Part shown: piece after piece, positions 1 to 35,131 of the stretch
How the letters are laid out: every line of letters begins with the position of its first letter
Numbering within the stretch: position 1 is the first letter of the stretch
Assembly (NCBI GenBank): GCA_009786975.1
Contig: WRGX01000217.1
Location: 1-36,508, forward strand
Direction: 5' to 3'
Length of the DNA: 36,508 bases
Source: Defluviitaleaceae bacterium
GTDB taxonomy: Bacteria; Bacillota; Clostridia; Lachnospirales; WQUN01
Translations under genes and position numbers: made by a program
Notes under the pieces: generated by a model
Databases searched by the model: none
Told to the model about the DNA's origin: nothing
Seen by the model: the letters and a program-made list of their open reading frames with translations, nothing else

Positions 1-114
1 GTTCCCTCGAAGCCGGGAGCAGTTTCTAGGCGTATAAAAAAAAGCAGTCGGCGAGTGACACTCGCCGACTGCTTTTTTTATGTGACGGGAAATCGCTTCC
101 GGCTTCGAGGGAAC
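1..114. repeat. Large palindrome built from two inverted TTCCCTCGAAGCCGG elements around a hairpin
   Basis: Positions 1-16 read GTTCCCTCGAAGCCGG and positions 99-114 are its exact reverse complement. The sequence between continues to match with a few differences up to the centre at base 58, so the stretch forms two arms of about 56 bases. The inner part is the 37-79 terminator-like hairpin. The left arm begins at the window edge and may continue outside. Seen directly in the sequence; the function (cruciform, terminator or mobile palindromic repeat) is inference. Confidence 0.85.
37..79. terminator. Bidirectional intrinsic terminator, copy 1 of a dispersed hairpin family
   Basis: A 21-bp uninterrupted stem is centred on base 58, with an A-run on the left and seven T on the right, so either strand gives a hairpin followed by a U-tract. 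The core is AGTCGGCGAGTG, one base, then its complement. It lies 84 bp downstream of the stop of the minus-strand FMN-binding-like gene and would terminate it. The same core occurs at 11958-11996 and 35095-35131. Confidence 0.8.
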
Positions 115-163
115 GCGTCGCCGCCAACATGTGTCCCCGGTTCCCACCGCGCGCTTGGCGCGC
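82..163 (-). repeat. CGAAGCCGG-family repeat, copy 1b
   Basis: Read on the minus strand, this starts with GCGCGC-CAA-GCGCGC (163-149), continues with ACCGGGGACACATGT, then CGTTCCCTCGAAGCCGG and AAGCGATTTCCCG. The same order of blocks is seen at 2885-2970 and inside purH (10826-10904). It begins at the TAG stop codon of the FMN-binding-like gene. An inverted partial copy (1a) occupies 1-32. Confidence 0.75.
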
Positions 164-11957: not shown

Positions 11958-11996
11958 AAAAGAGAGTCGGCGAGTGTCACTCGCCGACTCTCTTTT
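11958..11996. repeat. Dispersed hairpin copy 2, in the purH leader
   Basis: A perfect 19-bp stem is centred on base 11977 with the same AGTCGGCGAGTG core as 37-79. It lies between the putative purH promoter (12009-12037) and the purH ribosome binding site. It would therefore be the first structure in the purH mRNA and is followed on that strand by TTTT. It could act as an attenuator or mRNA-stabilising stem-loop rather than an end-of-gene terminator. Confidence 0.8.
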
Positions 11997-26438: not shown

Positions 26439-28079
26439 ATGATGCGTTCCATGTTTTCCGGTGTATCTTCCTTGCGAGTGCACCAAACAAGAATGGACGT
26501 AATTGCGAATAATATCGCAAACGTAAACACCACCGGATTTAAAGGTCAACGCGCACTTTTTTCCGACGCGCTTTATCAGAATCTCCAAGGCGCAACAATG
26601 CCCGACGCACGTTTCGGGCGTACCGGTATGAACCCGATGCAGGTTGGCTTAGGTCTTAACCTTGCGTCGATTGACAACTTGATGCATCAAGGGATTGTCA
26701 TGCGTACCGACCAACCCCTCGACGTTGCAATCGAAGGGCGCGGATTCCTTATCGTACAAGACCGCGGCACCCAAGAAAATCTTTTCACACGCGCAGGCAA
26801 CATTCGCCGCGACTCGGAGTGGAATTTGCACGTCAATGGTAACGCGCTCATGGGCTGGAGTACCGTACCCTGCGACCGCACCTTTGGCGGATGGGCTGTA
26901 AACCACGGAAACTTAGTTCCGCTTTCGTTCCAAGGCGAAAAACAATTTATGCCCGCCGAAGCGACCTCCATGATTGATATTTTGGGCACATTGAGCATTT
27001 CGAACCTGGCTATCGACCGCTCATACGACCCGCCGATGGAATACCGTATACTTCCGATACGTTTCTTCGACAGCTTGGGTAGCCTTTACGAAGTGAACGT
27101 TCGCTTCATTTATCACAGGGCATTCACCGACGGGCAATCCGACGCGGCGCGCTCACCCCACGGTTACTGGACCATGGAATTTATGACAACCGAGTTTACC
27201 TACGACACAAGAACGGGAACGCGCGCTGGAATTGATACACCGGAAGAGTTCCAAAACACGGTTTACGGTGTTCAGGCCTTCCGTAACGCGGATAGCAGAA
27301 ACCCGGAAAACGAAGCGGTTATCGGAATCGACATGTTCAACGCGTTAGCCGGCGGCGTAAACCTCGATGCATTGGCAGTTCCGGGCGGTTTCAACACCCG
27401 CGCAACCCTTGCCTTTGACTCGAATGGTAACTTACTCGGAATCGGTCGTGTAGATGAAGACGGACAGCCGTTGCGTTTCCTTCCGGACATGGTTGGAGAT
27501 GACTTTACCGAGGGTGACTGGGTGCGTGGAGACCAATTCGATTTCCAAATTGTCCCGATAAGAAACGTATCTCCCTCGGCAACGCTCGGTGATACAAGCC
27601 GCGAGAGGTCCGTTTACGGTCCCGCCGACGAGACGCTGATTCGCATCGGAACAATATCCTTCAACTTCGAAACTCTGCGCCAAATGGGTAACATTACCGC
27701 CATTAACAGCGAACGCAGAAATGGCGGAGGTCCCGGTGAATTGGAAGACATTTCCGTTGGCCGCGACGGCGTAATCACAGGACGTTATACAAACGGTCGT
27801 CAAAGAATCTTGGGGCAAATCCCCCTTGCATTCTTCGCGAACCCCGAGGGTCTTGACCGCGTCGGCAACAATTTGTGGCGCGAGTCGGCAAACTCCGGAA
27901 ACTTTGACGGTACGGGGCAAATCGGTCGTATGGTTGGCGGTGCGCTTGAAGGCTCGAACGTTGACCTTGCCAACGAATTTACCGAAATGATTACAACGCA
28001 ACGTGGTTTCCAAGCCGCCTCGCGTACAATTACCGTCTCTGACGAAATGCTTCAAGAGCTTGTAAATCTCAGGCGTTAA
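26439..28079 (+). CDS. flgE: Flagellar hook protein FlgE
   Basis: A 546-residue hook subunit. The N-terminal segment has MRSMFSGVSSLRVHQTRMDVIANNIANVNTTGFKGQRALFSD and the C-terminal segment NVDLANEFTEMITTQRGFQAASRTITVSDEMLQELVNLRR; both ends form the coiled-coil core. The variable surface domain in the middle makes it larger than enteric FlgE (about 400), as is common in clostridia. It follows a 99-bp spacer and has a strong AAGGAGGTAATTAATT site. It is followed by a large hairpin, so it may end a transcript. Confidence 0.97.
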   Translation: MMRSMFSGVSSLRVHQTRMDVIANNIANVNTTGFKGQRALFSDALYQNLQGATMPDARFGRTGMNPMQVGLGLNLASIDNLMHQGIVMRTDQPLDVAIEGRGFLIVQDRGTQENLFTRAGNIRRDSEWNLHVNGNALMGWSTVPCDRTFGGWAVNHGNLVPLSFQGEKQFMPAEATSMIDILGTLSISNLAIDRSYDPPMEYRILPIRFFDSLGSLYEVNVRFIYHRAFTDGQSDAARSPHGYWTMEFMTTEFTYDTRTGTRAGIDTPEEFQNTVYGVQAFRNADSRNPENEAVIGIDMFNALAGGVNLDALAVPGGFNTRATLAFDSNGNLLGIGRVDEDGQPLRFLPDMVGDDFTEGDWVRGDQFDFQIVPIRNVSPSATLGDTSRERSVYGPADETLIRIGTISFNFETLRQMGNITAINSERRNGGGPGELEDISVGRDGVITGRYTNGRQRILGQIPLAFFANPEGLDRVGNNLWRESANSGNFDGTGQIGRMVGGALEGSNVDLANEFTEMITTQRGFQAASRTITVSDEMLQELVNLRR

Positions 28080-28095
28080 GCCTAAATAATTTTTT

Positions 28096-28197
28096 GAAAG
28101 CGGCTTAATTGCAAAATTGATGATGTTAGCGTCACTAACATCGTCAATTGAAGCACACAAATGAAACATACAAAAAACCAGCATTTAAGCCGCTTTC
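28096..28197 (+). terminator. Two-level stem-loop between flgE and flbD
   Basis: An outer stem GAAAGCGGCTTAA (28096-28108) pairs perfectly with 28185-28197 and is followed within 4 bases by TTTTTT. Inside lies a second hairpin: 28115-28129 pairs with 28135-28149 over 15 positions, one of them a G-T wobble, with loop CGTCA. The structure can serve as a terminator or attenuator between the flgB-flgE and flbD-fliP blocks. Confidence 0.65.
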
Positions 28198-28220
28198 GAA
28201 CTTTTTTAAAAAAAAAGATG

Positions 28221-28249
28221 TTGTGTCAGACATTTTCTTGTGATATGCT
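28221..28249 (+). promoter_or_regulatory. Putative internal sigma-A promoter before flbD
   Basis: TTGTGT (28221-28226), a 17-bp spacer and TATGCT (28244-28249), with TGA just before the -10 box giving an extended -10. It follows the large hairpin and precedes flbD by 33 bp, so the second half of the locus may have its own transcription. Confidence 0.5.
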
Positions 28250-28282
28250 ACGGTGAGATACAAACCGAAGGAGGTGTCGAAC

Positions 28283-28477
28283 ATGATAACCGTAACAAAA
28301 ATCAATGACCGCGACATTGTGGTAAATTGCGATTTAATCGAGATGATTGAATCCACGCCCGACACCACGCTTACAACAACGACGGGGCGAAAAATAATAG
28401 TTCTCGATACAGTAGACGAAATTTTGGAAAAAGTAGTTGCATATAAAGGAAGAATAAGCAGGGTGAAAACGGAGTAA
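28283..28477 (+). CDS. flbD: Flagellar FlbD family protein
   Basis: A 64-residue protein of the small FlbD family found before motA in Firmicutes and spirochaetes. The pattern MITVTKINDRDIVVNCDLIEMIESTPDTTLTTTTGRKIIVLDTVDEI is characteristic. It is unrelated to the Caulobacter regulator of the same name; its function is unclear. AAGGAGGTG sits 8 bp before the ATG. It is the first gene after the internal promoter. Confidence 0.93.
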   Translation: MITVTKINDRDIVVNCDLIEMIESTPDTTLTTTTGRKIIVLDTVDEILEKVVAYKGRISRVKTE

Positions 28478-35094: not shown

Positions 35095-35131
35095 AAAATG
35101 AGTCGGCGAGTGTCACTCGCCGACTCATTTT
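35095..35131. repeat. Dispersed hairpin copy 3, between the sugar kinase and HIT genes
   Basis: A perfect 18-bp stem centred on 35113, with the same core as 37-79 and 11958-11996 but different outer base pairs that still match each other. On the plus strand it is followed by a T-run, on the minus strand by ATTTTAAAC, so it is a stronger terminator for plus-strand transcripts. It lies 27 bp upstream of the HIT start codon. Confidence 0.8.

Follow-up and report, generated by a model that had tools for sequence, protein, structure and literature searches.

MITEs are small, high-copy, non-coding elements built as inverted repeats. In the available parts of their descriptions, REP and REPIN elements are palindromes of 20-40 bp, present in high copy and mostly intergenic (PMC3733652, PMC3116915), and SPRITE is a short interspersed palindrome of a Firmicute with AAAA/TTTT ends and a long terminator-like stem, held mostly by one species and its near kin; the table in the accessible text on SPRITE gives 15 copies upstream of coding sequences and 15 in convergent positions, and the element is enriched between convergent genes (PMC3049150). 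By form, these pneumococcal SPRITE elements and the REP elements are the closest known kinds to the palindrome reported here from a Defluviitaleaceae bacterium, one copy of which lies in a terminator-like structure between two groups of flagellar genes. We term its family A, and a second palindrome of the same genome family B; the literature on palindromes, terminators and REP/MITE repeats that we searched, which lay largely outside subscription journals, yielded papers on REP, REPIN, MITE and pneumococcal repeats but no description of either family.

The window, i.e., the whole 36,508-nt stretch of DNA analysed, carries hook genes before the gap at 28080-28282 and stator/switch genes after it, an arrangement read earlier from the sequence and borne out by Pfam. 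Upstream of the gap are genes for FliK, FlgD, a short putative flagellar protein and a FlgE-type hook protein, the last of which directly precedes the boundary (26439-28079, plus strand; Pfam Flg_bbr_C and Flg_bb_rod) and has matches in 36 of the 41 genomes searched, counting its own, some of the matches being only other hook or rod proteins. Downstream, flbD (28283-28477, plus strand) is the first gene of a flbD-motA-motB-fliL-fliM-fliN/cheC-like unit encoding FlbD, MotA, MotB, FliL, FliM and a FliN/CheC protein (Pfam FlbD, MotA_ExbB, MotB_plug, FliL, FliM and FliMN_C/CheC).

Direct reading and folding of the gap recover all three features named in the preliminary description, a two-level stem-loop, a T-run and an extended -10 promoter. 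The outer stem has a perfect part of 13 bp (28096-28108, GAAAGCGGCTTAA, with 28185-28197, TTAAGCCGCTTTC), and its arms extend on the plus strand to 28093-28112 and 28181-28200, 20 positions that are 90% complementary and that enclose a 68-nt stretch with a second hairpin inside. The family-A palindrome spans 28110-28155, with outer limits set by eye, and has a 39-nt core at 28113-28151; its hairpin at 28115-28149 pairs 28115-28129 with 28135-28149 through 15 pairs, including one T28121.G28143 wobble, around a 5-nt loop. The stem at 28093-28200 and the T-run at 28202-28207 (plus strand), both downstream of the flgE stop codon (28079), have the form of an intrinsic terminator. A sigma-A-type promoter follows at 28221-28249 on the plus strand, consisting of TTGTGT (28221-28226), a 17-nt spacer and TATGCT (28244-28249) with an extended -10 TG at 28241-28242; our consensus scanner, set to a threshold of 9 of 12 positions, did not list this promoter, which scores 8 of 12 by hand count. 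A Shine-Dalgarno sequence at about 28268-28275 and the flbD ATG at 28283 complete the gap.

This structure is far beyond chance. The segment 28060-28300 folds at -73.6 kcal/mol against -43.2 +/- 4.0 kcal/mol for shuffled sequences (z -7.57), and 0 of 200 shuffles were as low. A search of the 36.5-kb window for perfect inverted repeats, 13 bp or longer and within 100 nt, gave 24 seed hits that fall at five places; 50 dinucleotide shuffles together yielded six seed hits. Rfam returned no family at gathering score anywhere in the window, and a known RNA family was rejected on that result.

We consider it highly probable that the gap is a stop-and-restart boundary, with the palindrome a passenger in the terminator loop and no switch. 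The outer stem and the CTTTTTT run would form an intrinsic terminator at which the RNA of the hook genes ends, and a separate sigma-A-type extended -10 promoter just downstream would start the flbD-motAB-fliL-fliM unit; that both work in the cell, and that the palindrome arrived by insertion, we infer. The inner hairpin would then be a copy of a genome-wide short palindrome that landed in the terminator loop. During transcription it would fold by itself and draw the outer arms nearer while the outer stem stays intact, a putative scaffold effect. A terminator with so large a loop may be weak, and the inner hairpin perhaps gives it slight help. The simplest reading is thus a passenger that may help to bring the outer arms together, and since the inner hairpin leaves the outer stem intact, the palindrome would be tolerated.

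As a boundary between transcription units, the gap recurs among near relatives, whose loci were taken as regions around motA from public genomes; most of the nearest named genomes are Defluviitaleaceae bacterium MAGs, and their isolate prefixes match termite-gut samples in the available part of the source (PMC7024585). The TTG...TG.TA...T promoter geometry is present in 15 of 17 relatives with a readable flgE end (20 loci were examined, the flgE end was readable in 16 and 14 of these were positive, and L071 from genome G004 was added); no promoter match was seen in the flgE-flbD gaps of L112 and L115, the latter of which does have the hairpin. A hairpin finder run on 11 of the 16 readable relatives found in all 11 a GC-rich stem, roughly 12 bp long and close to the stop codon; in L116 the stem lacks a good T-run after it. 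The alignment of relatives also shows paired changes at the foot of the stem, e.g., GTGCGGG/CCCGCAC in L110. In the more distant L076 and L078 of the same family, flbD starts about 10 nt past flgE and neither terminator nor promoter is found. The boundary drawn in the preliminary description thus belongs to the genus and its nearest neighbours, where stems and promoter recur, and does not extend to these two. Other material occupies the same gap elsewhere: after flgE, L070 (G016) has an ORF resembling a RelE toxin and L071 (G004) a fragment resembling an acetyltransferase, both judged by eye only, and the flgE-flbD gap of G001 (L066/L102) holds an unrelated dispersed palindrome with a GTAG foot (GTAGGGGACGG..) and 135 matches in G001, a genome in which no Y1 transposase was found despite that foot.

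The inner hairpin belongs to a dispersed family. A search of the gap against its own genome gave at least 36 matches, merged by hand to 27 places (40 of the 61 candidates were scored), and all 35 non-self matches fall within 28103-28152 of the window. The pattern TGATGTTAGTGNCACTAACATCA occurs with up to two mismatches at 28 places in the genome, against none for its backwards control, and at none in 60 relatives, nine of them of the same genus; no exact match of family A came from public genomes or viral contigs, a search that perhaps omitted records of the own genome. The working set of 37 entries was assembled from sequences similar to the window copy and from hits to the consensus pattern, and is incomplete, further A-like places existing at 4-5 mismatches; 33 of the 37 align gap-free to the consensus AAAATTGATGATGTTAGTGACACTAACATCATCAATTTT, an alignment that leaves out L021, L027, L033 (a half copy) and L051, which reads identically to L050 at another contig end. 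Four places were listed with one family-A arm: C210:7916 and C214:13390 prove on reading to be imperfect whole copies, and C141:947 and C187:1297 have no second arm listed. Across copies, 87.5% of cells keep the 18-pair helix (82.7% in shuffles), and cells changed on both sides number 23 against 9.2; pairs with both-side changes number six, not above the shuffles (5.0). Because related copies share changes, the both-side changes are not independent events.

The distribution of family A among relatives points to insertion. It was not seen in the flgE-flbD gap of any relative read. The rpsH-rplF gap holds a copy in the window genome, and G009, whose L6 is 93% identical, has there a short gap without one; in all, no copy was seen in that gap in the 11 relatives read, G009 included, of the 23 with a match. 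In L165, L167, L169 and L170, different species of the genus, this gap carries longer, differing and apparently unrelated sequence. Upstream of dnaG, a copy was not seen in seven readable relatives (the reading at L191 missed the dnaG start). The copy upstream of dnaG at L187 lies just 5' of a recurrent AGGATTTT..GTCGAATT motif, which we take to resemble a sigma-H promoter. No excess of target-site duplication was found around family A, flank matches being about the shuffled level at half-lengths of 14-23, so that insertion is deduced from the distribution and not from a footprint.

Where the copies sit was scored against gene calls from our own codon-usage script, whose start codons may be off. 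For gap types, 29 of the 37 entries were used, four inside gene calls and four without a neighbour having been dropped. Divergent gaps hold 14 of these 29, whereas in the background 28 of 151 gaps 60 nt or longer are divergent (binomial p 0.00026, Fisher p 0.0011); convergent gaps hold two. The centre lies 36-47 nt upstream of a start codon in 13 of the 37 entries; among the 29 the count is 11, against 3.5 +/- 1.7 for random placement within gaps (0 of 5000), a null that ignores promoter and Shine-Dalgarno limits on tolerated insertions, so that tolerance rather than function may explain the placement. A promoter-like match (score at least 7) stands just upstream in 11 of the 14 copies within 60 nt of a start, against three of 14 when flipped (Mann-Whitney p 0.003), and the -10 ends 9-12 nt before the family-A foot in seven of the 12 copies with any match (p 0.002), both offset tests having been designed after the sequences had been seen. 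This placement suggests a leader hairpin that would start near +1. The window copy stands outside the start-proximal group: it follows a stop codon by 53 nt and precedes a start by 151 nt. As for the neighbouring genes, a Pfam family was assigned to 18 of 20 near family-A copies, and no theme links them, so a pathway regulon was rejected.

These placements could also be those of a protein-binding site, the inner palindrome being the homodimer operator of a genome-specific global regulator with the flgE-flbD copy as one site. The strong symmetry of the palindrome agrees with this, as do the 14 of 29 copies in divergent gaps against 28 of 151, the 13 of 37 entries centred 36-47 nt upstream of a start codon and, post hoc, the -10 that ends 9-12 nt before the foot in seven of 12. 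However, no theme unites the genes adjoining the copies, other copies are found close to the ends of genes or within larger repeats, arm changes occur jointly on both sides, and nine genomes of the same genus are without copies. We therefore hold an operator to be unlikely.

Family A is accompanied by family B, a second palindrome that shares with it the apex AGTG[A/T]CACT. A pattern covering A together with GAGTCGGCGAGTG[A/T]CACTCGCCGACTC (family B) occurs with up to two mismatches at 351 places in the 2.2-Mb genome, at five in G009 and at none in 39 other relatives. In a 390-kb sample that combined the window with parts of the longest contigs, a search for near-perfect palindromes, which misses imperfect copies and some known A copies among them, found 47 B copies and three A copies; 44 of the 47 B copies lie outside gene calls. 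A recount free of the symmetry condition gave for B 44 places with no mismatch, two with one, one with two and none with 3-8, and for A eight places spread over 0-5 mismatches, the reversed controls giving none below 8; by these spectra B is nearly invariant and A is not. The B consensus AAAAAAnGAGTCGGCGAGTGACACTCGCCGACTCnTTTTTT has an A-run and a T-run on its two sides and looks like a bidirectional terminator. It has no bias to divergent gaps (eight of 42, p 0.84), and in raw counts convergent gaps hold seven of 42 copies against 17 of 151 background gaps. Its T-tail asymmetry near starts and near stops showed no clear difference by eye, and the promoter signal before six B copies near starts was not above the flipped control. 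Within the window, B palindromes lie upstream of the Shine-Dalgarno sequence of minus-strand genes at 11958-11996 and 35095-35131, centred 38 and 44 nt before the start, with a promoter-like match upstream of the former copy only.

Copies of both families are also found in or next to a larger palindrome that is GC-rich (window 1-115, L029, L031). At window 1-115 this is a large nested palindrome with outer arms GTTCCCTCGAAGCCGGGAGC.. and a B hairpin inside, similar outer sequence being present at several loci, and at L029 (1934-2242) A and B stand side by side in one composite repeat. The only viral-collection contig with an exact B core is L205 (3111-3137, IMG/VR); the GC-rich outer element is present on this contig as well, which may therefore be a fragment of the genome of a related bacterium. 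Families A and B might be one mobile system, with recognition of their shared apex, of AGTGACACT type, by machinery other than RAYT, and could serve as portable RNA parts, B as a ready-made bidirectional terminator and A as a 5'-terminal leader hairpin at start sites. The A foot, about 10 nt after the -10, would in that case mark insertion at transcription start sites. We offer this reading tentatively and regard it as rather improbable.

Set against the described kinds, families A (AAAATTGATGATGTTAGTGACACTAACATCATCAATTTT) and B (AAAAAAnGAGTCGGCGAGTGACACTCGCCGACTCnTTTTTT) resemble SPRITE, compared by form with the available part of its description, in their AAAA/TTTT ends and long stem, whereas the window copy of A ends in TTGA rather than TTTT, A favours divergent gaps and sites shortly upstream of starts instead of convergent gaps, and the two families together have 351 pattern places. 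They are likewise high-copy, short and mostly intergenic palindromes as REP and REPIN elements are in the accessible accounts, but no conserved unpaired GTAG/CGTC foot is present in the 33 A or 47 B copies. The RAYT transposase (Y1_Tnp, PF01797) gave no match in the window's genome, which is 92.3% complete, and a RAYT-driven REP was rejected for that reason; among the nine genomes of the same genus one has a Y1 transposase match. With MITEs the families share small size, high copy number, inverted repeats and non-coding content; they differ in being almost all arm with no body, A has no excess of target-site duplication, and no parent transposon was identified in a search that covered Y1 transposases. 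The gap itself resembles an ordinary intrinsic terminator in having a stem and T-run after the stop codon, where near relatives have one, and departs from it in the second hairpin held by the 68-nt stretch between the arms. Since the GTAG/CGTC foot and RAYT are not found and A lacks the convergent bias of SPRITE, we class the locus as a variant of short interspersed palindromes lodged in an ordinary terminator. What is new relative to known repeats is the position of family A just upstream of start codons, in many copies just after a promoter-like -10.

The dispersed nature of the inner hairpin also bears on regulation at the gap. The preliminary description had proposed that alternative pairing of inner and outer stems adjusts read-through, and a riboregulator or attenuator would act in this way, its stems exchanging partners, or a ligand or protein on the inner hairpin tuning read-through into motAB-fliM. 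Such control would matter at just this position, and the structure far exceeds chance; however, the outer and inner arms are nested without overlap. In the ensemble, the outer arms share 18.4 expected pairs and the inner hairpin contains 14.7, no pairing of an outer with an inner arm reaches 0.01 expected pairs, and the cross terms that do occur are to the loop (0.29, 0.05 and 0.02). The best cross-duplexes reach -5.3 and -4.1 kcal/mol, against -27.8 for the outer and -19.9 for the inner stem, and when the inner hairpin is deleted in silico the outer stem does not change. Further points against such regulation are that the inner hairpin is a dispersed repeat not seen in the same gap of the relatives read, that nothing in the window matches Rfam at gathering score, and that a promoter-like sequence of the downstream unit's own comes after the structure. 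The proposed exchange of partners thus finds no support, and regulation in any of these forms appears very unlikely; because the inner hairpin is one copy of a scattered palindrome, a hitch-hiking repeat is more likely than a regulatory switch.

The closest relative with a readable gap is L099 (the same gap as in G003). Its alignment to the window resumes in the loop past the palindrome and continues through the 3' outer arm (ATTTAAGCCG[C/T]TTTCGAAC), the T-run, with TTTTT at the equivalent place, and the promoter, which differs at two of 29 positions. The 5' outer arm has no counterpart there, other hairpins standing in its place, and therefore no exact pre-insertion state is preserved for the flgE-flbD site; these extra hairpins are not dispersed in G003, where they match only themselves. 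G009, perhaps nearer by L6 identity, gave no match for the gap. As L099/G003 has the 3' arm without the 5' arm, the latter may have arisen locally as an inverted copy of the former, but formation of the whole two-level structure in place by local inverted duplication, without insertion of a dispersed repeat, is very unlikely, explaining the outer stem only, when the inner hairpin has relatives of 83-95% identity elsewhere in the genome.

The passenger reading has a practical side, in that a two-level RNA structure of which half is a dispersed repeat is easily taken for a riboregulator, and a check of the rest of the genome settles the matter. Of wider interest is a palindrome system at 351 places in 2.2 Mb, with one family almost letter-perfect and of two-way-terminator shape and with no Y1 transposase found, while in the same gaps some other members of the genus have inserts that seem unrelated. 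Should the copies function as terminators or leader hairpins, selfish repeats would thereby gain a direct route to setting transcript ends; and if families A and B are indeed one mobile system, hundreds of transcript ends, the flagellar boundary included, would have been rewritten by a single palindrome system.
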